A DNA stretch of 64,000 nucleotides from Crambe crambe (taxonomy: Eukaryota; Porifera; Demospongiae; Poecilosclerida; Crambeidae), in assembly GCA_963924555.1 (NCBI GenBank), contig OZ004595.1:1798001-1862000 (forward strand), given 5' to 3'. The position numbers and the translations under genes are program-made. Below the pieces are notes generated by a model. It worked only from the letters and a program-made list of their open reading frames with translations, had not been told where the DNA came from and ran no database searches. Shown piece by piece: positions 22,847 to 58,000 of the stretch; positions within the stretch are counted from its first letter, which is position 1, and the number at the start of each line of letters is the position of its first letter.

Positions 22847-23096
22847 ATCAATTGGCAATGTAATAATGATGTCAGTCAATTGGCATATATATAGTAAGTA
22901 ATGTGTATACTTAATGACGTGGTCAGTTGGTATAAGGAATGTTCTTTGATATTCATAGGCTACATAAGAGCTAAGTATATAAATTCAAATTCCCAGATCC
23001 CAAATTGACCTTTACCACTGCATGTAGCAGCTGGGCTTTATTGCTGCCTCATACTAAGAGCTTGATTGCTTTTTTACAGTGTTGGCGCTAGGCTTA

Positions 23097-26000
23097 GGCC
23101 ACTACAAATTGTACTTTAGTTTCCCGTCCTGTAAAGCCCCACAAATACAGGCGGGCGGGAGGCAAAATCCATTATTCCAATATTCAATTACCATTACATA
23201 AACAGGATGTCTGAGTTTTTTTTTAATTGCATAAAATTGCATTCCAAAGGTATATAAATATACAAAAAACAAAAAAAAAAAAAGGTCAACTAGTTCTTTC
23301 TTGGGATTCTGGGCTTGGAACAGTTAGAACACTGAGGATAATATTCCTGTGACTCTTCAGATTCTGGCATTTCTTCCGAGCAATGGATGCAGATGTCTTG
23401 GAGGTTTGCTGAATAATACAGTTTTTCAACTGGTTCAGTGCACTGCAGTTTCTTGACGTACACAACATCCTTCAGGTCAGGTGGAATATCTGCATCCTGT
23501 AGCTCTGATCCACACGAGAATGATAACCCATCCAGCACTCTCTCCATGGCTTGCTTCTCTGATGAAGTGAGCTTGCGTCTAGCATAAACCAGCCTCCACA
23601 TAGAACACTCTTCACATAACAGCATCATGCTTGCATTTTTTACATGTTGAACACTGGGGTAAAATGGTAGACATTTTTCTTTCTGGGTGAGCTTGTGGAG
23701 AGAAGGTCGATGCTGTTCTGATGTTTCCTTTCTAGCAACATCAGAAAAAGGTTTGTAGTGGCCATCAGATGCTGGCATAGGATCAGGCATGTGTACAAGC
23801 TTCTGGAATACGGATTCCGGGAGTTGGGGAGGCTTGCAGATCTGGCAGGTAAGATTACCACACTTTTTGATCTCAAAGAAATAGTGTCGTTCCCTGCAAC
23901 AGTGCTCAAAAAAATCTGACAATCTTGGGGTCAGGGACTTGACCGACAACTTCTCTTTGTGACTTAGCTCGAATGTGCTGTCATATGTAGTAACACAAAT
24001 TGTCTATGTCACTTGATAGGGCAGCTGTAGACACCACAAAGGGCTCACCTTTGAGTTGTAGTCTCTGTGTAATCCTTGAAAGAAGGATTTTTACAGGAGC
24101 TATTGAGTCAGCAACAGACTCTTTGAAGGCTGGAGTTGCTTCTGCCTGCTTCCGCAACTGAGAGTTATTATTACACTTCTTAATCTCTTTCTCCATAGCA
24201 TCATCCAGTTTAGTACGTGCCAGGCCTACTGATTGTAGACCTAAATTTAGGATGGACATGATCCTTTCTGCTGGATTGCGAAAAGAGTGATAAGGGGCAG
24301 TACGAGTTGCACACAAGTAATCCAAATTCAGTTTCAAGAAGAGAGCAGCGAGAGCCAATTTCACACTCATGTAAGTGACCCTATGATCAGGGCCACCATC
24401 GGAATACAGTGGGTTAGACTTGGCTTTCTCTTGTAACATGTTACACAGTTCAGTAGAATGCTGTACAGGCGATGAAGGCTCAAAAGCTCCCTCTTTGTAT
24501 AAAACGTGAACCTTTCCTGTATACCAAGAACCACTTAACTCACTTGGGATTTCGTTCATGAGTGCAACTGAAGGGATTAGACTAAATCGAGTGAAGTCGT
24601 GATCGGCCACATGGAACGGAGAGCTTCTGTTCACCCAAACTTGTCTTCCTCGCTCAGCAGCTGCAACTGGATTATCTGGCTCGCCCACCTTTACTCTATG
24701 TTTGTCATCCACACATACCAACATGGCATGATCACAGACAAGCAATGCATATTCACGTACATAACGAAATATGCACACAGCATAATGAGCATCTTTGTGC
24801 TCCTTTCTCCACTGGCACTGTTGTACCATCTTTCTGACTTGCAGCATACTGGTGTAATTAGAAGCAGTACGAGAATTTCGATGAGAAGGGATGAATTGTA
24901 GTCTTATGAGTTCGTCACAAGGTATGAGAGTGTCAGGAGGGCACCTCTCCTGAACTTGATTTCTGAAGTCACGAATTGAAATAGCCTTTGCTAGATGTAC
25001 TACGTCTGAATGCCGCCTGTCATCCACTGCTGTGCCGACATCTTCTTCAAGAAAGGCTTTAGCCTTCTCCCAAAACATGCTAAACTTTGAAGGTCTCCCA
25101 GCATGCACTTCCCGGAGATCATATGTCACATCAGGCTCCTCTAGTTCAAAGAACATCTTCACACGCCCATCAATTTCAGCTTCTGTAAGGTTAGCTGGAG
25201 CTGACGCATCACCAGTGAGATCCTTATAAGTGCCGTAACACTGACTTTCTGACTGTCGGCGTGATGAGTCCAAACTTCTCAAAAGCTGTTTTTCTCATAG
25301 CCCTTGAGTGGAAAAGAGGAACCTTCGCCTTCAGATCTTCAATTATGGGCTGGCATGTTTGAAGAGCAGTGGAGATGTCAGTGGCTGAAGTATGCCAAGC
25401 CCAATGGAGATTGATTAAATTACTACCAGGTGCATATGTTAGAAGAACAATGGGGATATCCAGTCCCTTTTTAAGGCTTTCTAACCTATCAAATCTGCGG
25501 CGTCTATCAGAAGGTAGAAACTCTTGAAGGTCAACTGGTATATCTGAATCAGCATCACTAATAGCGGAGCTAATTTGTGCAAGGTCAGAGGACGGCGAAT
25601 GACGAGGAGCAATGTAAAGTACAGACACGGAGTTTCCAACACTGCGAACAGGCTGCTGTGAGGAGTGTATCAATGACATGGCTACTCTTTTTGAAGACAA
25701 CATAACAGCATACTTAGCCAATGATTTAGCTAGGAGCTCAACTTCTGACTTGAACTTCACCCAAGTGCCCGAATTCCAGAATACACATTGCAGATTGCCA
25801 AAAAGACGCTGAGAGTGTGAACGTAGAGTTTATGCACACAAACCCCCCACTTTTCGCTTTCGATGCTTGGACAAGTCTGGTCGATTATAGCCTGAAAATT
25901 GATGAAAGACAAGAGGAATTGCACAACTTCGTTCTGCTAATGTGCTGTAGTGGCCATCAATGTACCATAGTACATCACAAAGTGTACGCACGTGTTCGAT

Positions 26001-26856
26001 CCAGTTTTACACTCGATTGAAGGACTCCACGCTAGTTCTTCTTTTTCCAGCCAGTCAAGTATTGCATTATGGAGTTCATCTTTTTTATTCCGTGCAGGGG
26101 CTATACGTGGTGGAAGAGTTCGAGAGGGTGACCTATGCGCCATCAAGATTGTAAAAGCGTTAGGAAGCTGTACTGGTGAAGAGGATACAGAGGAAGGTTC
26201 ATCATCCTTCTTCACATAAAACCAGACATATTTCCCAAAGGAAGAAATAACAGCACTCAATTTAACATCTACACATAAAAAAGACACTGACGTTATAGAA
26301 TCTCAAGATTCATAGCTACATGTGAATTGCAAGCTATAGTGGGTGTACACTGAGGGCTTGTATTCACATCAACTGGACACAGGAGAAAAACTGTCCAGAT
26401 CACAGCTAGAAGCTAGTCTTATAAAAAAAAAAAAAGGCTTAGTAGCCTGTATGCCAGATTCTTAGGCCTGTTTATATGTAAAAAGGCTTAGCTATAGCTA
26501 CAGCTTACTGGAGTCTCCCACAATGTCCAGGGAATCTTTGCAACTTCCCACACGGATATCATCCACACTGTGGCCTGCCAAATCTTCACTGTTCGGTCTG
26601 CTAGCCAAATTGTTGTACAGCTCCTTGACAGTGGTTCTTTCATCATCTTCTTGGTATATAGTCCAAGGAAGGATGGTTTTCCTTCCAACAGAGTCATACA
26701 CACTAACACTAACTAGTGCCATAGCTAGAAAACAGCTGCAAAGTGTCACGTGATCTTAGCATGTGGTAAATATTGAAGTGTTAATTGAATAATTTAAAAA
26801 GTAGGCGGGTACTAAATTAGCAAGCGGGTGAAACTAAACTACAATTTGTAGTGGCC
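23097..26856 (-). mobile_element. 3.76 kb DNA transposon with inverted termini and TTA target duplication
   Basis: The left end begins GGCCACTACAAATTGTA and the right end is its reverse complement. About 27 of 28 bp match before GC-rich subterminal DNA (GCGGG motifs) on both sides. TTA stands directly outside each end (23094-23096 and 26857-26859). The body carries one minus-strand, two-intron-start transposase-like gene. A TTA duplication and GGCC ends recall PIF/Harbinger elements, but the encoded protein does not look like that transposase to me, so I leave the superfamily open. Confidence 0.8.
23290..26722 (-). pseudogene. Broken DDE-like transposase of the 3.76 kb transposon
   Basis: The reading path starts at ATG 26722 (exon 1 26722-26509, donor GTAAGC, then acceptor at 26268) and continues leftward to 23290. 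Recognisable blocks are an N-terminal FGKYVWFYVKKDDEPSS, WYIDGHYSTLAERSC, NLQCVFWNSGTWVKF, a central domain and a Cys-rich C terminus (CQICKPP, CEECSMWRLVY, CIHCSEE, CSNCSK) likely to bind zinc. In the long open frame 25282-23981, residues D192 (VDDKHRVKVGEP), D295 (YSDGGPDH) and E339 (NPAERIMSILN) are spaced as in a DDE/RNase H-fold transposase. The assignment is inference from spacing. Breaks: a frameshift near 25980, a stop at 25830-25832, a frameshift near 25225 and another near 23990. This copy cannot make the full protein. Confidence 0.7.
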
Positions 26857-27330
26857 TTATCTAAGTGGGTTACAGGTGCTTGGCTTAAGTGCTTGTGATA
26901 TCTCTCTAGTTTTTTAAAAGTTTTTTTATTTTATTTTATTATTATTTTTTTTGTTTTTTTTTTTTTTTTGGGGTGGGGGGAGGGGGGGCGATGGAAAGCA
27001 CAGCACCAAAGTACAGATACGAGCTCCATCAGCATTTGTCCTTCCAGATCAGATTCATTCGCCTCATACAATATGATGAAACCTCCACATAACTAGCTAC
27101 AACAGATGAACTTAACTTGGATAAAGGATCACAGCATCCAGTTGCCTATAATGTAGCTACTTGAGGAAAGGGGTCTTATGGAACAAAAATTCAAAACGGA
27201 GTTTTATTAGTATCATTCTTAATCCTTTAATTTTTGTCCCCGTTGTACTTATTGAATTTTACATCTCATGTACATTTTATATGTAGCATGTAAACTTGTA
27301 TTGTTATTCTAGATACATGAACAAGTAAGG
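26857..27330. other. Gene-free spacer with T-rich and G-rich low-complexity DNA
   Basis: It contains a T-rich tract (about 26910-26969) followed by a G-rich run (26970-26990). I see no coding exon or element termini in it. Confidence 0.5.
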
Positions 27331-27675: not shown

Positions 27676-28411
27676 TATCAGAGAGTGCGGTAGCACTCTC
27701 TATGTAGGGATGACTCGGACGGCCGCGTGCGCCGCCTATAGACTAATACAAAAGTGAAATTCCAGTTCCCCCACTTAGACCTAACAAAAGCTACTGTGAA
27801 TGATTATCCAGCCTACTAGAGCCAACTACAATGTGCAGACCAAGTTTCAGGACCAGGGAGCTTACCGTTTCAGAAATACGGCAAGCAGGTAAATCGCTAT
27901 ATTCTTCTTCTTCTCTATTATCAGAGAGTGCGGTAGCACTCTCTATATGTAGGGATGACTCGGACGGCCGCGCGCGCCGCCTATAGACTAATACAAAAGT
28001 GAAATTCCAGTTCCCCCACTTAGACCTAACAAAAGCTACTGTGAATGATTATCCAGCCTACTAGAGCCTACTACAATATGCAGACCAAGTTTCAGGACCA
28101 GGGAGCTTACCGTTTCAGAAATACGGCAAGCAGGTAAATCGCTATATTCTTCTTCTTCTCTATTATTATCAGAGAGTGCGGTAGCACTCTCTATGTAGGG
28201 ATGACTCGGACGGCCGCGCGCGCCGCCTATAGACTAATACAAAAGTGAAATTCCAGTTCCCCCACTTAGACCTAACAAAAGCTACTGTGAATGATTATCC
28301 AGCCTACTAGAGCCTACTACAATGTGCAGACCAAGTTTCAGGACCAGGGAGCTTACCGTTTCAGAAATACGGCAAGCAGGTAAATCGCTATATTCTTCTT
28401 CTTCTCTATTA
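27676..28411. repeat. Tandem array of three ~245-bp units
   Basis: Units begin at 27676, 27919 and 28167, each with TATCAGAGAGTGCGGTAGCA, and end with a TTCTTCTTCTTCTCTAT tract. The copies differ by only a few substitutions. Each carries a small palindrome (AGAGAGTGCGGTAGCACTCT) and a GC-rich GGACGGCCGCG segment. Confidence 0.85.
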
Positions 28412-28429
28412 TTATTATTATTATTATTA

Positions 28430-38567: not shown

Positions 38568-40132
38568 GCACTCACTATAATAGAATATCTAATGGTAGGG
38601 TTTAGCCTACTTCTTCAGCATACAGTTAGGGCTATAGCCCTATCTGTCATATGGGTTTCTCCACCTATGTTACATATGCTTTTTCATGTAGATAAAGGGT
38701 AGAGGGGGCAAGGCAATTGTCATTAGCAATAGCTAGAGCTTGGCCAGTTTCAAGAGCAATATGAAGTAAAAGGAAACAGTTTAAACAGTTTGTGTATAGC
38801 TTTTACTCATTCAACAAGAAGCCAACTTTCATCTACAATAACTGATAGCTGAAGAAGTAAGAATCATGGAATGAAAACTGTAGCTACTAGAAAGTCACAA
38901 CTTGTCAGTACATGCTGTATTTTATACTTGGGCCAGACCAATTAAATTTCCTGTTTCTCATCAGTTCCCTCATTGTCCAAATTAAGAACACAAACACTCA
39001 TAGAGTGTTGTTTGAGTTAAAAATACACTTTCCAAAATGCATACACACTGTTAAAATGCAGCTAGCTACGCAAGTGAGTGCAAAAATTTTAAAAAGTGAA
39101 GTACATAGGGATAGCCATAAAATTTAGCTACATTATTACTATTCCTATCACTCCTAGCCCTCCTATATAATTTCAATAACCACACCTACGTATATCACCC
39201 AACTTAAATCCCTACTTCACTCCACCTACCATGCTCTAACAATGACAAATAATAGAGAGTGATAATAACAAGTAGCTACTCTATTATACTGAGAGAAAAA
39301 TAATTATTATTTACCATTATTATTTCTACCAGTTGAAAGTCCCAATATGCTAGCAGTGACTGATGATGATACGATAATAGTAGTGGGGGATTCTGATACA
39401 TGTGGATATGTGAAATTTTTCAAGTATAATTCTGAATTAAAAAAACTGGAGGAAATCAAGTCCTTCAACCTGACGAAAGGAGAGAAAAAAGTACGTCCCA
39501 GAGGAGTAGCAACAAATGGTACACATCTATTCATTTCAGATAAAGCCAATGGCTCTATCCTAAAATATACCTTGGATGGTGACTATATCGATGCAGCAGG
39601 TATGAAGTTTAGTGGTTGTTGTGGCATTGCAATTGACAGAGTAAAGAAAAGGGTTTACATAGCACATCAAGGAGAACATAGAATCCAAGTGCTGGACGAG
39701 GATCTTAAGCCTCTCCCTGAATTTGATTTAGAAAATTTAAAGGGACCACGTGATGTGGCAGTTGACGGAAATGGTAATGTTTATGTATCAGATACAGGCA
39801 ATAATTGTGTACGAGTTTTTAAAGATGGAAAAGAGATAGATGGAAAATGCATCAAAGAAATAGATGGAAAATACATCATGAAAGAGAGAAAATTTAAAAA
39901 GCTTGCAGGATTATATGTTGATCGTAACGACCGTATATTTGTTGCTGATCAGGATAGTAACCGTGTATGTGTGTTCGACTCCAAGGGAAAGTTAGTTTAT
40001 TCATTTGGTGAGGATGCAGAAAGGAATGAAATTTTCAGAGAGCTTATTAGTGTAGTAGTTGATAGTGATGGAAGGATGTATACATCTGACCATAATCCTG
40101 GTCATCTGAAAGTATTTCAACTACACGGATAA
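33560..40132 (+). CDS. Ig-Ig-stalk-TM-NHL receptor
   Basis: Six exons with matching phase-1 GT-AG junctions, 33560-33668, 34064-34318, 34629-35066, 35276-35341, 37868-37999 and 39333-40132, give 599 aa. Exon 1 is a signal peptide (MTAALIILLLSVSRILG). Exon 2 is an Ig-like domain (ARCSAS, SWYIQRY, EGTYHCGLSNN). Exon 3 is a second Cys-rich Ig-like domain (YLCSNL, DEGLYTVELQF). Exon 4 is a Ser/Thr-rich stalk. Exon 5 holds a transmembrane helix (GIIIAPIIITIILYIIVIIV) followed by KKGQTR. The last exon encodes about 265 aa of NHL-type beta-propeller (DVAVDGNGNVYVSDTGNNCV; LAGLYVDRNDRIFVADQDSN), which would lie in the cytoplasm. Alternative: the NHL exon could be a separate gene, though it has no good upstream start and its phase fits the TM exon exactly. 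Confidence 0.75.
36490..36690. repeat. Partial copy of repeat family R
   Basis: GGGATTGTTGGCTGGATATA, GGTCATCCCTACAT and TGTGTATGCAGGGACAGATG match the foldback arm and its flank in R1, in inverted order. It is truncated on both sides. Confidence 0.55.
36737..37310. repeat. Dispersed repeat with internal duplication
   Basis: GGGCAATGTACAACATTTGA, GAGCGAGCAAGTAT and GGCATTTTGGAGTGTAGA match RTK intron 5 (16927-17100). Inside, a unit with TGCATAGAAA and CTTAGATA(A/T)GCC occurs twice (near 36868 and 37062). Confidence 0.4.
37460..37732. repeat. Foldback arm pair of repeat family R
   Basis: ACAAGTAAGGGAAAA at the left and its inverted match at the right enclose two opposed copies of GTTCTGTA-TATCCAGCCAAC-type sequence, as in R1. 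Pairing is less perfect than in R1. Confidence 0.6.
38000..39332 (+). other. Intron between the TM and NHL exons
   Basis: It holds a T-rich stretch with a TTG repeat (about 38250-38280) and a T tract of about 28 nt (38539-38567). I saw no exon in it. Because it separates the membrane and propeller exons, it is the place to test whether they belong to one transcript. Confidence 0.5.
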
Positions 40133-49092: not shown

Positions 49093-52000
49093 CTGCATCA
49101 TTATCATCATCATGTAGCTGCAGGCTTTGTACATGTGACCTACTATTCAGCTAACCTGGTACTGGTTCTCAAATCCTGACATACATGTACCACCAGTTTG
49201 CAACTGCTCCAAATGTTGAATTGCGATGCGTAAGTTAGTGGCAGATATTTCAGTATCCCCACAGAGAATCAGCTCACTTAAACCATCATGAATGAAGATG
49301 AATTGTGTCTAAAGAAATGAAACTTTTAGCACATGTTCTTGCCTAGTGTCGTATCTGTGCTTATTGCTGGCAGATACTTAATTGGAATGTACATAAATAG
49401 CTAGCCACCTACCTGTGTCTGGACCATGTATGTCCTCTGAGATCTAATGCCCTTCACAAATGGATAAATGTTAAGTGAACGCTCCACCCTTATTTGCTCC
49501 AGCATGGCATCCAATGTGATGAAGGTCCCCGTGCGTCCCACCCCTGCACTGCAATGCACCAGAATGGGGCGTGTCTCACTGTGGGCATGGACCTTGCGGA
49601 CTTGACGGATGAAGTTGATGAGTACAGTCATACTGCTGGGCACTCCATGATCTGGCCAGGAAGTGAAGTGGAACTGAAGAATCTCAATGGAACCAGAATC
49701 TGCAGACGTCTGAGAATAGAATGAGGGCTGATATACATGTAAAGTGATGGTAGCTAGTACTCACATTATTGGTGAGCTTCATTTTTCTGAATGTGTAGTC
49801 TGCAAAGGGTGTGATGGAGGAGAGGGAGACAGAAAGGTGAGGGGTTGGCTGAAGACAACTCTCCATTGACTCTGGCCAGTACCGGTCACATTTCAACTGC
49901 ATGGATAAGAGAATCATATGGTCTGGTGCTTCCAGGTTGTGAAAATGCCATGGTTTAGTGTTGACTCACCCTGCCACCTTCATAGCATTTAGTGAGCATC
50001 ACTATTGTTGAAAGTTTGTACTGCCAAATCATCCTCCAGAAATCACCTACTGTCTCTGCCTTGGGCCCTGCAGAATATGAACTGTGTAACTAACTATACC
50101 TGCATGAGGCTGCATGTCATCCACCACTTACCCTGAGCTGCAATGTATACCTTCTTCTTCCTGTATCCCTAAAAGATGCAAAGGATTACTAAGAAAATAG
50201 CTGTACAACTGATTATTACATCAATGAAGCTGGCATTGATGTAGTCTGATCCTTGCACTCCAGGAATCTCTTCCAACACCACTCGATTGTAGTCATCTGG
50301 CAGTGCATGCATTCAAGAAATGACTCCTCTAGCTGCTAGCTACATAGAGGAACTTACAAGGGAAAATATTTCCAAAGCGATTTTTGAGTTTGTTATGAGG
50401 TATATCTGAAACAGTGTATGGAAACTGTGGGGATGTGGGAATGGCCTGTGGTGACAGGGAAAGTGCAATGGTAGTTTATAGTGCATACACACTTGCTAAC
50501 TACACCTACAGTGTACTGATCTTCAAAGCCTTTATCAGCCTCTTGATGTAAACACTCAACATACTCACTGAATTTCTCGATTGCTATACCTGGTTTCTTT
50601 TCCTTCACTGGAAGTATGAAGTATCAGCATAATACCATGTACATTCTCCCCGTGATCCTACACGCACTTAGCAGTGGTCAGGTCTTACCAAATCGTGACA
50701 CATCCATGAGATAGTCATCTTGGTCTTCAATGCTTTCTTTAGTAGCAGCAGCACTTATTTTTTCCTCACTCTGTGTTGCACCAAAAGTGGTGGTTGTGGT
50801 GGCTTCCTCCATCACTTCAACTCTATCAGTTGACTTGTTTGCACTCATTACCCCCTCATACAGAGGCCTGGGACCATCCTTCTCCAAAGCTCGCACACTT
50901 ACGATAGAGAACTTGTGCTTAACCTTCCTCCTAGTACATGTAATCACACCAGCTGTATCTTAGGGACAGTCAGTGGCATTGCACTCTATAGGAACAAACC
51001 TTCTCCGTATTGCCACTAATATGACAACAATCAAGACCACCACAATGACTATGGCTATGACAGCTGCAGCAGCACCTCCTGCTGTCACTCCAAGGGAGTC
51101 ACTGTCATCCACATTGCTCCCAACCTTCAGTCGCAATGTGAGTGTGATGTTCTGTGAATCACTACCAGTCCCAGTCCTGCAGGTCAGTTGTTCCTCTGGC
51201 TTGTTGATGTTAAAGGAGTAAGAGAGGAAAGAGCTGGAACTGTTTGCCAATGATTTTCCATCAGCATTCAACCATTCCAGCATGGTGAAGGAAATGTCAG
51301 TGGAACAGTTTAATTCCACTTTCTCTCCAGCCATGAGCTCAACTTTGTTCTGTGACACTTGCAGACCTAAAGAGAACTTCAATGAACTTTGCAGGGAACC
51401 AACTAACTACATATATAGCTAGTTACCATAAAGACTTATAGTTTCAGTATCAGAGCTGTTGCTATTGGAGACAGTGCAGTCGTAAGTCCCAATGATATGT
51501 GTGGGTTCTCTGTTGTGAATGGTCAGAGTGTGATCACATCTGCTTTCAGTAAAATTCACTATTTCCTGATGAGTGCTGTACTGGTCTGAATCAGATAAAA
51601 GAGAGATATTCTTTGTCCATGTAACTGAGTCAACAGGCCCTCCACTAGACGTGCATGTGAGGGTACAAGAAGTGTGGTTGTACTCTAAGACAATTATCAC
51701 AGGGGCACCTACAAGGGGAGAGTTAAATTACTTCCTTATTAGCAAGCACATGCAATATTACCTAAATTCACTCCAATATATAAAGTTTTGCTTCCCTCCC
51801 CATCAGGCACATGACAGGTGAACAGTCCAGTGGGCCCCATAACACCAGCCCTACGATTGAGGAGGACTGCACTGGGACCTCTACTTCTAGTGAAGCTCGC
51901 ATTAGGAGCATTGACATCTACCACTGGACTAGTCTGCCCTGGAAGGAACCACTCTCCTGCTCCATCACCATCTCTTTCTCTACAGCAGGTGGTGAGGTTA

Positions 52001-55000
52001 GTGAGACAGTGCAGAGCATTGTAGCCTTCTCCTATATCAGTCAGGGACACTACACTGTTGTTGGGGTACAACACACCTCTCAGGAAGAAACCAACAGCTG
52101 CAGAATCGTTAATTATACAGTAGCTACATAGCAAGTGTGTAGTTATGCCAATATTACCCTCAGGTATTTCTGTGGTCCTAGTCACTTCAGTTGGTAATCC
52201 TGTTAATTGGAGAATAGTAGACTTGTTACTATGGAAGGCCCTCACTTCAAATGTATAGTTAGTTCTTGGGATGAGTTTGCTGGCAGTGAATGTTCTATTA
52301 TTAGCTTCAACTGTTTCATTGCCAAAGGGACTGGAGCAATTGTTGCAAGAATAGGTCACACTGTAGCCAGTGATCATGTCCACATTCCTTTCCCTGCATG
52401 GAACATCTCCCCATGTGATGGATATACTAGTGGGGGAGGTGGAGGAGACCCTCAGAGACTTCGGGGGAGAGGAAGGAGCTGCAAAATTATAACAGCATAA
52501 CAATGAACATTTAATAGAATACAGTCTAGGCTACCATTTAAAGTCATTGCAGTGGTGTTGGCAGGTGGACTACTCCCTGCTCCATTCATGGCTGTGATGG
52601 AAATGGTGAAGTCACTGTTCTCTTCCAGTCCTGTCAGAGTGTACTCTCTGAAGGTACCATTTACTGTACTTGTATTACTGCCCATCACTCTACAGCCTCT
52701 GACAGTGAATGAGTATGATATTTGGTATGAGTCCACCACATCCCCTGGAGACTGGCTCCATGTTAAGGTGATGAAAGTTGACATGGAAGAAGTGTTCAGG
52801 ATATCAGGGGAAGAGGGAGAATCTGAACACCACAAAATTACCATATCATGCATGCAAACAGTTTTGTAGGAGATTCACCATAACAAGTAGTTCCATTTCC
52901 AGTGTATCCTTGGTTACATGTACAGGTGAAGCTCCCAGGAGTGTTGATACATGTAGCATTAGAGTCACAGATGTTATCAGCACACTCATCAATATCTATG
53001 ATATGCAGTAAGTAATTAGCTATGCACTAAACTGAAGCAGTAGCCATTAAAATTACCTTCACAAGTGGTTCCATTTCCAGTGTATCCATGGTTACATGTA
53101 CAGGTGAAGCTCCCATGAGTGTTGGTACATGTAGCACTAGAGTCACAGTTGTTAGTAGCATTGGCACACTCATCAATTTCTGAAGATAGGAGAACTAACA
53201 CTTAAACATTGAGAGAATGGGGACTGTTTTACCAGTGCAGGTTGTTCCATTTCCAGTGTATCCATGGAGACATGTGCAGTTATAACCACCAGGAGTGTTG
53301 GTACAAGTAGCATTAGAACTACAATCATTATCACCACCTTCACCACATTCATCAATATCTGCATTCAGAATACCAGTACCACTATGAGACACACATACAC
53401 AAGGATATGATGTCAATTGTACCTTCACAAGTGGTTCCATTTCCAGTGTATCCTTGGTTACATGTACAGGTGAAGCTCCCAGGAGTGTTGGTACATGTAG
53501 CATCAGAGTCACAGTTGTTAGTGGTAGCATTGACACACTCATCAATATCTAAGAAAATGCTCAATGTAAGTAAACGAGTCTTGTCACAGAGCGAACAGCA
53601 AGAAGCTGAGTATTTCACTGAGGAGCGGAGTTTTTGTTGCTAAAGATAATTTGAATTTTAAGCAGGACTCTCAAGATGCTAAGCATCTGCCTTTTTATAG
53701 CTATTTTACAAAATGAGTTGATACAATGCTAAAATGAGCCAATAGGATTACTATATTAAAATAACCAATGAGATTAAGTGTCTGTTATTACCTAATAATG
53801 CAAAATTAACCAATGAAGTAAGTCAACAGTCATGCTTCTAGTGTCAATCTATCACAAGTCTACACATCAACTATACCATTGTATGTCCGACTTTTATTCC
53901 TTCCCTCTGCATCCCTGATAATACATGTCAAATTCCCCATCATAAAGTTAGAGGAATTAAAATTGGTGAGGATGTTGTGGTAAGTAGTAGATACTGCATT
54001 TTTGATGATCTGACTTTGAGTGAATATTGAACTGTTTGCTGTGATAGTTGCTCCATTTATCATCCAAGTGACTGAGTCCACAGGTCCACCACTAGATATG
54101 CATGTCAGACTGGCCATGCTGGAAGTGCTATTGTAAATGAGGTCAGTGATGACAGGAGAACCTGTAAGTATATATAGAGCATCAGGTATTTCTTATCTCA
54201 ATGCATGTTGCATACTTGAATTCACTCCAATATACAGAGTTCTATTAGTTGCACTCCCATCAGGCACCTGACAGGTGTACAGTCCAGTGGGTCCTGTACT
54301 AGTCCTATGATTGAGGAGGACTGCACTGGGGCCTCTACTTCTAGTGAAGTTTGTTGTGCCTTTATCTTTATGTATACCAATCACTGGACTAGTCTGCCCA
54401 GGAAGGAACCACTCTCCTGCTGAACCACCATCTGCTCCTCTACAGCAGGTGGTGAGATCAGTGAGACAGTGCAGAGCATTGTAACCTTCTCCTATATCAG
54501 TCAGGGACACCACACTGTTGTTAGGGTACAACACACCTCTCAAGAAGAAACCAACAGCTGCAGAATGAAAATTAGCTAATGATGGACATGACATAGCTAT
54601 AGCTATATTTTATCAAGTAGATTCACCTTGTGGTACTGCAGTAGTGACTCCTGTTATGACAGCTGGTGGTCCATTGAGGATAGTACTGCCATCATTATGA
54701 GCAACTTCAAATGTGTAATTTGTCCTTGGAATGAGATGATTAGCAGTGAACATTCTAGTACTATCATTTCTCCTTCCTCTAATCACATCATCAGAGGTGG
54801 TTCTGTAGACTATTTGGTATCCAGTGATATCCACATTCCTGTCAACACATGGGACTTCATCCCATGAGAGGGAGATGTTAGTGGGAGAGATGGAGGAGAC
54901 CATCAGATTAGCTGGAGGAGCAGAGGGAGCTGCCAAACAACTTTATTGCATGAGAGTAGAATTCAAATATAATGAAACTCACTAGTTGCTGAAGTCTTTG

Positions 55001-58000
55001 CAGTGGTGTTGGCAGGTGGACTATTCCCTGCTCCATTCATTGCTGTGATGGAAATTGTGACATCACTGTTCTCCTCCAGTCCTGTCAGAGTGTACTCTCT
55101 GAAGGAAGTACTCACATTATCACCTTCCACTTCTTCACAGCCTCTGATAGTGAATGAGTATGAGATTTGGTAGAAGTCCACCACATCCCCTGGAGACTGG
55201 CTCCATGTTAAAGTGATGGAAGTGGACTGGGGGGAAGTGGTGATTTTTGTTGGTGAAGAGGGAGGACCTGAACACCATAAATAATAAATGCCATACACAT
55301 TCAGTTTTGTATTAACCGTAGCAAGTGGTTCCATTTCCAGTGTATCCTTTATTACATGTACACTTGAAGCTCCCAGGAGTGTTGGTACATGTAGCATTAG
55401 AGTCACAGTTGTTAGTGGTAGCATTGGCACACTCATCAATATCTACATATGTGGGGGAGCATCGTGCATTGTGTACAAGAGAATCAAGGTATTGATACAC
55501 TCTCTGGTATCTGATAATAATTGAGTGTTTTTACCTTCACAAATGGTTCCATTTCCTGCATATCCTTGGTTACATGTACAGATGAAGTTCCCAGGAGTGT
55601 TGGTACAGTTAGCATTAGAGTCACAGTTGTCAGAAGCAGCACATTCATTGATATCTATGATTATGACATAATTTTAGATATAATGTGATATTGTCAGTAT
55701 GGCAGGCTATACCTTCACAAGTGGTTCCATTTCCAGTGTATCCTTGGTTGCATGTACAGGTGAAGCTCCCAGGAGTGTTGGTACATGTAGCATTAGAGTC
55801 ACAGTCATTAGTAGCATTGGCACATTCATCAATGTCTGTGCAAAATAAAAGTGATGGTGCTGATGTGATTGCTGCACCTCTAGCCCCATTAATAATTGTG
55901 TATGGACTTTAGATCACCTTCACAAGTGGTTCCATTTCCAGTGTATCCTTTATTACATGTACAGTTGAAGCTCCCAGGAGTGTTGGTACATGTAGCATTA
56001 GAGTCACAGTTGTTAGTGGTAGCATTGGCACACTCATCAATATCTACATATGTGGGGGAGCATCGTGCATTGTGTACAAGAGAATCAAGGTATTGATACA
56101 CTCTCTGGTATCTGATAAGAATTGAGTATTTTTACCTTCACAAATGGTTCCATTTCCTGCATATCCTTGGTTACATGTACAGTTGAAGCTCCCAGGAGTG
56201 TTGGTACATGTAGCATTAGAGTCACAGTCGTTAGTAGCATTGGCACACTCATCAATGTCTGTGCAAAATAAAAGTGATGGTGCTGATGTGATTGCTGCAC
56301 CTCTAGCCCCATTAATAATTGTGTATGGACTTTAGATCACCTTCACAAGTGGTTCCATTTCCAGTGTATCCTTGGTTGCATGTACAAGTGAAGCTCCCAG
56401 GAGTATCATTACATGTAGCATTAGAGTCACAGTTGCTATCATCAGTGGCACACTCATCAATATCTATAAAATTTTGAAAGTGAGTGAGTGAGTGAGTCTA
56501 TCACAATGTACGTCGATTAGCTACAGTTGAATGTCCGACTTTCAGCTTCTTCCCCTATAACGCATGTGAAACTCCCCATCATGAAGTTAGACGAACTGAG
56601 GATATTGTGGTAAGTAGCAGATGTTGCATTTGTGATGATCTGATTCTGAGTGAATATTGAACTGTTTGCTGTGATAGTTGCTCCATTTATCATCCAAGTG
56701 ACTGAGTCCACAGGTCCACCACTAGATATGCATGTCAGACTGGCCATGCTGGAAGTGCTATTGTAAATGAGGTCAGTGATGACAGGAGAACCTGTAAGTA
56801 TATAGAGGAAGATTATGTATCAGGTGTTTCTTATCTCAATGCATGTTGCATACTTGAATTCACTCCAATATACAGAGTTCTATTAGTTGCACTCCCATCA
56901 GGCACCTGACAGGTGTACAGTCCAGTGGGTCCTGTACTAGTCCTATGATTGAGGAGGACTGCACTGGGGCCTCTACTTCTAGTGAAGTTTGTTGTGCCTT
57001 TATCTTTATTTATACCAATCACTGGACTAGTCTGCCCAGGAAGGAACCACTCTCCTGCTCGACCACCATCTGCTCCTCTACAGCAGGTGGTGAGGTTAGT
57101 GAGACAGTGCAGAGCATCGTAGCCTTCTCCTATATCAGTCAGGTTTACCACACTGTTGTTGGGGTACGACACACCTCTCAGGAAGAAACCAATAGCTGCA
57201 GGTAGCTAAACATCCATTCAGTGATTATTGGCTACTTACCCTTGGGGACTTTAGTCACTCCTGTCACACTAGCCAGTGGTCCCACAATAGAGTTATTTGT
57301 AGAGTGGTTATAGAAGGCCCTCACTTCAAATGTATAATTAGTTCTTGGGATAAGTTCACTGGCAGTGAATGTCCTGTTTGCTTGAACTATTTGATTGCAA
57401 TGTGGATTCGAGTGATTGCTGTAATATTTCACTCTATAGCCAGTGATCATGTCCACATTCCTTTCATTGCATGGGACATCTCCCCATGTGATGGATATAC
57501 TAGTGGGGGAGGTGGAGGAGACCCTCAGAGACTCCGGGGGAGAGGAAGGAGCTGCAACATAGTTATACATGTAAATGTCTATTCATGCTAAAGAATAGGG
57601 TTTACTATCTATTAAAGTCTTTGCAGTGCCGTTGGCAGGTGAACTACTCCCTGCTTCATTCATGGCTGTGATGTTAATGGTGACATCACTGTTCTCCTCC
57701 AGTCCTGTCAGAGTGTACTCTCTGGAGGAAGTACTCACATTATCACCTCCCATTTCTCCACAGCCTCTGATGGTGAATGAATATGAGATTTGGTAGAAGT
57801 CCACCACATCCCCTGGAGACTGGCTCCATGTTAAGGAGATATTAGTGGACTGGGGAGAAGTGATCAGCACAATAGGAGAAGAGGGAGGACCTGAACAATA
57901 AGTAAATGTCATGTTATACACACAGTCAGCTATGTACGTAGTCATGTACCATAGCAAGTGGTTCCATTTCCAGTGTATCCTTGGTTACATGTACAGGTGA

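Follow-up and report, generated by a model that had tools for sequence, protein, structure and literature searches.

A transposon family in the sponge Crambe crambe whose transposase is probably a divergent relative of ISAzo13 and Zator transposases

ISAzo13 elements are described as the prokaryotic counterpart of the eukaryotic Zator transposons, and both are said to make target site duplications of 3 bp (PMC10045372). A duplication of three nucleotides, TWA, is also ascribed to PIF/Harbinger elements, and most autonomous members of that superfamily are described as carrying two reading frames (PMC4482050). The element considered in this study lies in a 64-kb stretch of the Crambe crambe genome (the window, by which I mean the whole of the DNA analyzed). 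To judge from its sequences, the family to which it belongs probably consists of cut-and-paste DNA transposons with a DDE transposase distantly related to the ISAzo13/Zator type, and the window contains a defective copy. The likeness to Zator consists of the 3-bp duplication and a core related to ISAzo13/TP36 transposases, and the link would run through ISAzo13, by way of the published kinship between the two (PMC10045372).

The element is 3,760 bp in length (23097-26856 of the window) and its boundaries are exact. The left terminal inverted repeat (23097-23123, plus strand) is 27 bp long and of the type GGCCAC-N16-GTTTC, and it is identical at 26 of 27 positions to the right repeat (26830-26856, minus strand), which lies upstream of the transposase gene. 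The target site duplication TTA, to which no strand is assigned, can be read from the sequence on both sides, at 23094-23096 on the left and at 26857-26859 on the right. A first-pass annotation of this DNA had described a DDE-type element with 27-bp inverted ends and a flanking TTA duplication, and all of this was borne out.

The transposase gene runs entirely on the minus strand. A frame of 433 amino acids is open over 23981-25282 and contains the motifs VDDKHRVKVGEP, YSDGGPDH, and NPAERIMSILN at residues 191, 293, and 336. Within it lies the catalytic part of the transposase (23996-25228), the part with a profile-profile match to ISAzo13. The first of its three acidic residues, D192 (codon at 24707-24709), lies in VDDKHRVKVGEP and aligns with the D of VDTKKKELVG in ISAzo13; the second, D295 (24398-24400), lies in YSDGGPDH and aligns with TADCGGSN; and the third, E339 (24266-24268), lies in NPAER and aligns with WNRIEHR. 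The motifs and the intervals of 102 and 43 residues between the three had been read from the sequence beforehand, and correctly so. All three residues are invariant across 13 aligned rows of the family (the window copy among them), and so is the motif HDF (H228-F230, 24593-24601), which aligns with HDF in ISAzo13.

The rest of the gene is found in other frames. The Cys-rich C-terminal part (23293-23982), also claimed at the outset, differs in frame from the catalytic part; the open frame that encodes it spans 23290-23949. Its Cys columns are conserved in the 13-row alignment, and a Pfam search gave a weak match to zf-CW in three of the 13 members (best E-value 0.0017). The middle part (25227-25991) is again in another frame, which is interrupted near 25,830 by an in-frame stop. 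Of the N-terminal part, a first coding piece (26509-26722), beginning at a likely ATG, aligns at 30% identity (E-value 5e-4) with an intact copy over its residues 1-71, and a second (26030-26268) is 40% identical to an intact copy. The 240 bp between the two pieces (26269-26508) are probably a frame-keeping GT-AG intron, given their border sequences (GTAAG...TGTGTAG); the intact relative L012 is uninterrupted at this position. With changes of frame near 26,000, 25,228, and 23,985, the gene is spread over three frames, and the window copy of the transposon is defective, its gene broken by frameshifts and by the stop. The first-pass annotation spoke of one gene, which needs correcting in that the gene is no longer whole in the window copy.

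The host genome, 143 Mb in size, contains 102 matches to the transposase family, and intact reading frames of 975-1,110 amino acids were found at 13 of the 30 loci fetched. A complete element (L010) measures 3,785 bp, with an open frame and ends that pair at 27 of 27 positions; family matches also lie between paired ends at C3:2253886-2257451 and C3:3554198-3557939, and the genome has many short copies with the family's ends. Several copies are nearly identical to one another (L018 and L019, 99.7%; L029 and L030, 99.1%; L007, L008, and L011, 99.4-99.5%). The family is large and apparently recently active.

Across the genome there are 734 instances of the end motif GGCCAC-N16-GTTTC and 20 of the reversed control, which excludes an origin of the motif by chance. 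TWA flanks 657 of the 734 ends; those without it are a minority (77). The loci themselves provided ten distinct pairs of ends (eleven rows, L031 and L036 being the same element), and nine of the ten have the same TTA or TAA on both flanks, seven of the ten coming from loci that were fetched by a TTA-bearing pattern. One of the eleven rows, L055, joins the ends of different copies: they match at 17 of 27 positions and are flanked by TTA and TAA. The 30 fetched ends are all flanked by TTA or TAA (L043 by TTA) and, having been picked by the TTA-bearing pattern, constitute no evidence on the flank.

None of the 13 members matched a transposase model among the 24,736 Pfam and 18,950 NCBIfam families, none exceeded the cut-off of PF07592 (ISAzo13), and a search of the host genome with Pfam's ISAzo13 model gave no overlap with the transposon family. 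A lone sub-threshold match to PF07592 in the genome (L061, E-value 0.042) is elsewhere, bears stops, and reads as noise. A close match to a catalogued superfamily was thus looked for in these libraries and not found. The transposase had been called divergent, and the term is supported. It had also been called impossible to place, which is too strong: its catalytic core is in register with ISAzo13 transposases.

When the family profile was compared to that of 57 non-redundant ISAzo13 sequences, the score was 40.9 (P 1.8e-4 for one comparison), as against a mean of 16.5, a standard deviation of 2.8, and a maximum of 26.3 in 100 column-permuted controls. The rows of this set had been repicked by alignment, 112 loci yielding 74 with at least 200 amino acids and these yielding 57 that were not near-duplicates. 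The profile alignment brings the first D, HDF, the second D, and N..E into register. Scores of the family with other DDE types were 19.4 (IS630), 13.9 (integrase type), and 13.3 (IS5/Harbinger type). The ISAzo13 signal is dependent on the set used, and the putative homology is seen at the profile level alone. The 34 closer ISAzo13 members gave 28.6, and a narrower set, trimmed by regular expression (26 of 44 rows), gave 18.8, within the range of its 40 permuted controls (maximum 22.0). In that trimmed comparison IS5 (26.0), IS630 (23.3), and the integrase type (22.0) all scored above ISAzo13, over short N-terminal stretches. The 44-row set contained poor rows (L179, L188, L191, and L192, 15-22% identical to the reference).

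Scores near 40 can also arise other than by the relation of catalytic cores. The 44-row ISAzo13 set scored 43.7 with the IS5 type across 75 columns beyond the catalytic part (26.7 with the repicked set), and IS630 scored 35.8 with the repicked set, likewise beyond the catalytic part. An HMM of the family ranked two of 44 ISAzo13 proteins, at 12.4 and 10.5 bits, over every decoy (the best of which reached 5.5); in the reverse search integrase-type proteins came out on top (9.6) and family members (3.5) fell below the best decoy (6.0).

The likeness to ISAzo13 may also be followed by motif. The elements VD.K...VG, HDF, D.GG, and S..N..E occur in the family in identical order, and HDF, present in all 13 family rows, is found in 21 of 25 ISAzo13 proteins measured. 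The distance from the second D to E is 44 in the family and 43-44 in ISAzo13, and that from the first D to the second is 103 in the family and 91-93 in ISAzo13. The proteins differ in size, ISAzo13 being mostly about 400 amino acids long as compared to 975-1,110 in the family, and the Cys-rich end of the family is absent from 14 aligned ISAzo13 rows. Predicted structures were of too low a confidence to be used, with a mean pLDDT of 34.7 for the window frame alone and 39.0 when 14 ISAzo13 rows were included. In the latter model the expected order is present, with strands close to D192 and to D295 and E339 covered by a helix, but I give the model no weight.

The duplication by itself would suggest a divergent PIF/Harbinger (PHIS) element. 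The earlier remark that TTA duplications are known from PIF/Harbinger agrees with the TWA given in PMC4482050, and TWA is what most of the family's ends bear. The host genome does hold 34 matches to PF13359 (the DDE_Tnp_4 type) at E-values of 1e-8 or better, one of which (C3:3816170) has, 2.3 kb away, a lone TWA-flanked end at C3:3813916 with no partner end listed. Those 34 places, however, compared by eye, do not overlap the 102 places of the family; none of the 13 members matches PF13359; the profile score with the IS5/Harbinger type, a bacterial set only, is within its 20 permuted controls (maximum 19.0); and intact copies have a single long frame, not the two described for most autonomous PIF/Harbinger elements (PMC4482050). 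The family shares the TWA duplication with PIF/Harbinger, and the transposase, as the first-pass annotation held, is unlike theirs in the tests that were run. Because there is neither a PF13359 match nor a profile signal with the bacterial IS5/Harbinger type, PIF/Harbinger is set aside as highly improbable. The weak score with IS630 is over its 20 permuted controls (maximum 13.1), but IS630/Tc1-mariner elements are described as duplicating TA (PMC10045372) and the family duplicates the 3-bp TWA; with no match to PF13358 in any of the 13 members, Tc1/mariner-IS630 was rejected.

It is unlikely, if less so, that the family belongs to some other catalogued eukaryotic superfamily, such as AcademX, Novosib, Zisupton, or CMC. 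The duplications described for AcademX (3 or 4 bp, PMC10045372) and for CMC (2-4 bp, PMC4482050) would accommodate 3 bp, and the string CACTA is present inside some of the family's ends (GGCCACTA). That string is not retained in other subfamilies, which have GGCCACAC, GGCCACTC, or GGCCACAG, and the element begins with GG, so CACTA was rejected. AcademX, which is linked to an added nuclease (PMC10045372), was rejected as well: no such domain is present in the 13 proteins, and intact copies have a single long frame. Kolobok is described as having a TTAA duplication and a C/DxxH motif between the second D and E (PMC9587614); the flanks in the window share TTA only, and there is no C/DxxH between D295 and E339, so Kolobok too was rejected.

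A less remote alternative, though still a doubtful one, is that the family deserves the rank of a new superfamily among the DDE transposons of eukaryotes, an undescribed superfamily having been suggested by the first-pass annotation as well: a lineage derived from or sister to ISAzo13 and separate from (perhaps sister to) Zator, with a transposase of some 1,000 residues bearing N-terminal and Cys-rich parts of its own, and with the TWA target, as in PIF/Harbinger, reached independently. It would account for proteins that carry big extra parts and that no Pfam or NCBIfam model recognizes as transposases, for the absence of any overlap between the family and Pfam's ISAzo13 model in the host genome, and for a profile-level likeness to ISAzo13 that varies with the set used. 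Against this, the motif register and the 3-bp duplication fit Zator/ISAzo13, and the rank of superfamily needs comparison with Zator itself. A divergent ISAzo13/Zator-type relative remains the probable reading.

If that placement is right, the N-terminal and Cys-rich (zinc-type) parts of the transposase may bind the ends, each 27 bp long with GGCCAC on the outside and GTTTC on the inside, and the D192/D295/E339 site may then excise the element, with two metal ions in an RNase H-like fold. The excised element would be joined to a TWA target at points three bases apart on its two strands, and repair would therefore duplicate TTA. Intact copies elsewhere could mobilize in trans both short copies and broken ones, that of the window included.

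A text search of the literature found no description of the transposon family, but text cannot be searched by sequence, so publication is possible. The two general domain libraries do not recognize the protein as a transposase, and copies could therefore be annotated as unknown genes, or be labeled Harbinger by virtue of their TTA duplication. Should the placement hold, two transposase types share TWA, and the duplication alone therefore cannot assign an element to a superfamily. A profile made from the family would recover a large family in the Crambe crambe genome and perhaps in others, and the intact, nearly identical copies make its activity directly testable.

Relatives outside the host were sought with the family profile in viral contigs and in bacterial and archaeal genomes, and none was confirmed; a plasmid search with one member (L007) gave no match. 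Likewise, no relative was confirmed in viral scans that started from an ISAzo13 protein or from an alignment led by the window protein. A viral scan with an alignment led by an ISAzo13 protein returned seven loci.

The transposon copy occupies 23097-26856 (3,760 bp) and is bounded by terminal inverted repeats of 27 bp each, identical at 26 of 27 positions and both flanked by TTA. Its gene lies on the minus strand: N-terminal transposase pieces, upstream and reaching 26722, are followed by a catalytic frame of 433 amino acids (23981-25282) and then by a Cys-rich C-terminal frame (23290-23949). The first-pass annotation gave the coordinates, the TTA-flanked ends, and the residues D192, D295, and E339, within three named motifs of the catalytic frame, exactly. 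It also described one gene, but in this copy the gene is split: the alignment to the intact copy at locus L012 falls into five pieces across three frames, and a stop codon interrupts the reading frame near 25,830. A gap relative to L012, at 26269-26508, is probably an intron, since it is bordered by GT and AG and leaves the frame unchanged. The nearest relative, at locus L002 (97.6-98.7% DNA identity), also shifts frame near 23,985 but lacks the shift near 25,228. Given the pieces in three frames, the stop, and the frame change common with L002, the window copy in its present state is, to judge from its reading frames, non-autonomous, and its lineage may have been mobilized in trans. About 800 bp past the right end of the element, a 246-bp unit is found in three tandem copies 97% alike (27676-28415).

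The family is real and apparently recently active. A search of the host genome (143 Mb, 119 contigs) with the 433-amino-acid query gave at least 102 matches, a lower bound. Going by nothing more than the window's NHL and fibronectin type III frames, the host is perhaps an animal. Thirty loci were fetched, including the window copy, and 13 of them have an unbroken stop-to-stop frame of 975-1,110 amino acids. When the window frame is aligned to 12 of these 13, D192, D295, and E339 are kept in every row, and HDF (228-230), G296, G297, H300, N336, and others are also conserved. Locus L010 holds a complete element of 3,785 bp with a 1,020-amino-acid frame, inverted ends that match each other at all 27 positions, and TAA on both sides (in the orientation of the locus). 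Because several copies are 99.1-99.7% identical in DNA (L018/L019, L029/L030, and L007/L008/L011), the sequences argue for recent movement.

The end motif read from the copies, GGCCAC followed by 16 variable bases and GTTTC, occurs 734 times in the genome, as compared to 20 times for a reversed control; preceded by TWA (TTA or TAA), it occurs 657 times, as compared to once. I estimate from base composition that about 6% of ends would have such a flank by chance. The count of 657 out of 734 is free of flank selection, while the earlier pattern used to fetch loci itself included TTA. Identical TTA or TAA stands on both sides in nine of the ten distinct end pairs from fetched loci, the tenth joining ends of different copies; seven of the ten come from loci fetched with the TTA-bearing pattern, the exceptions being the pairs in the window, L003, and L010. 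Two end pairs on host contig C3 enclose family matches (C3:2253886-2257451 and C3:3554198-3557939). Short copies are numerous. Among the first 100 matches listed, an exact span of 272 bp is seen in at least four pairs and one of 322 bp in at least nine, duplication excluded (e.g., C1:3572877-3573154 and C1:5347705-5348032), and these short copies with family ends look like non-autonomous MITE-type elements. A lone end-like sequence in the window, GGCCAGACCAATTAAATTTCCTGTTTC (38931-38957; one mismatch, TTG flank), is perhaps a remnant of another subfamily, a weak case because window matches with up to two mismatches (13, as compared to 8.9 expected) are near chance.

The chemistry of DDE transposases is established, and by analogy I infer that the transposase would pair both element ends and cut at GGCC, that the 3' ends would then join the two strands of a TWA target three bases apart, and that repair would convert this stagger into the target duplication. 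Conservation supports the catalytic triad and the ends as parts of this proposal.

The family is overlooked by the domain models searched: Pfam and NCBIfam gave no transposase match in any of 13 members or in the window pieces. The catalytic frame matched no PDB chain, and no confirmed relatives were found in viral contigs or prokaryote genomes (family profile) or in plasmids (one member). The zf-CW domain was weakly matched in three of 13 members (best E 0.0017), and zinc and DNA binding may be the role of the Cys-rich part.

The motif string of the family, which I took to be like that of the bacterial insertion-sequence family ISAzo13 (PF07592), prompted a collection of ISAzo13 transposases, compared with the family profile by hhalign. 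A 44-row set scored 38.7 (P 6.4e-4) across family columns 159-348. On the same footing, IS630 scored 19.4, integrase type 13.9, and IS5/Harbinger type 13.3, and the maxima were 17.3 for eight reversed-profile comparisons and 24.3 for 20 column-permuted profiles. A non-redundant 57-row set, its rows repicked by alignment, scored 40.9 (P 1.8e-4), as compared to 100 permuted profiles with a mean of 16.5 (sd 2.8, maximum 26.3). The aligned motifs (family/ISAzo13) are CVDDKHRVKVG/SVDTKKKELVG, DHDF/VHDF, SDGGPDH/ADCGGSN, and RNPAER/WNRIEH. Of 25 ISAzo13 proteins measured, 24 have a distance of 43 between the second D and E; in the family it is 44.

The score varies with the set. When the ISAzo13 set was trimmed by regex to 26 similar members, the score was 18.8, inside the range of 40 permuted controls (maximum 22.0); the same set gave 26.0 with IS5 type, 23.3 with IS630, and 22.0 with integrase, in short stretches before the catalytic part. 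The score was 28.6 with the 34 closer members and 41.4 with ten divergent ones, but the divergent set contains poor rows. With the family HMM, two of 44 ISAzo13 proteins score above every decoy; in the reverse search, integrase proteins rank first and the family falls under the best decoy. A high score can also arise in other ways. The 44-row set reaches 43.7 with IS5 type in a 75-column stretch lying beyond the catalytic part, and this match may be due to some rows that have long carboxyl extensions or whose frames were picked wrongly; IS630 scores 35.8 with the repicked set, likewise outside the catalytic part. The family's match stands out by its length, 167-200 columns across the catalytic part, and by the register of its acidic residues. 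The link to ISAzo13 is, on these profiles, likely but not proven.

The family was not filed as ISAzo13 itself, because it fails the Pfam model. PIF/Harbinger elements have the TWA duplication (PMC4482050), as does the family, but the transposase does not fit (no PF13359 match in 13 members; profile score 13.3 with a bacterial IS5/Harbinger-type set), and I rejected that placement; the 34 PF13359 matches in the host genome do not, judged by eye, overlap the 102 family places. Eukaryotic Zator is described as resembling prokaryotic ISAzo13, with 3-bp duplications in both (PMC10045372), and the two are also paired in PMC5718144. As far as published description goes, the family shares both features, having a 3-bp duplication and a core likely related to that of ISAzo13. 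It is most likely a divergent lineage of Zator/ISAzo13 type. The first-pass annotation could not place it in a known superfamily and inferred a divergent or undescribed one; divergence is supported, and the likely profile link gives it a probable place. A separate transposon superfamily is a less likely alternative.

Zator/TP36 has been grouped with IS630 in print (PMC7386202). The family's IS630 score of 19.4 exceeds 20 permuted controls (maximum 13.1), which is what remote shared ancestry would lead one to expect. Some loci of a single bacterial genome, G003 (e.g., C6:36226-36939), match both PF07592 (ISAzo13) and PF13358 (IS630), in keeping with a common origin.

Elsewhere in the window, an open frame of 261 amino acids (39347-40132) matches NHL repeats (E 5e-20), and fibronectin type III domains occur in three frames on the minus strand (51739-55439) that are perhaps exons of a single gene.
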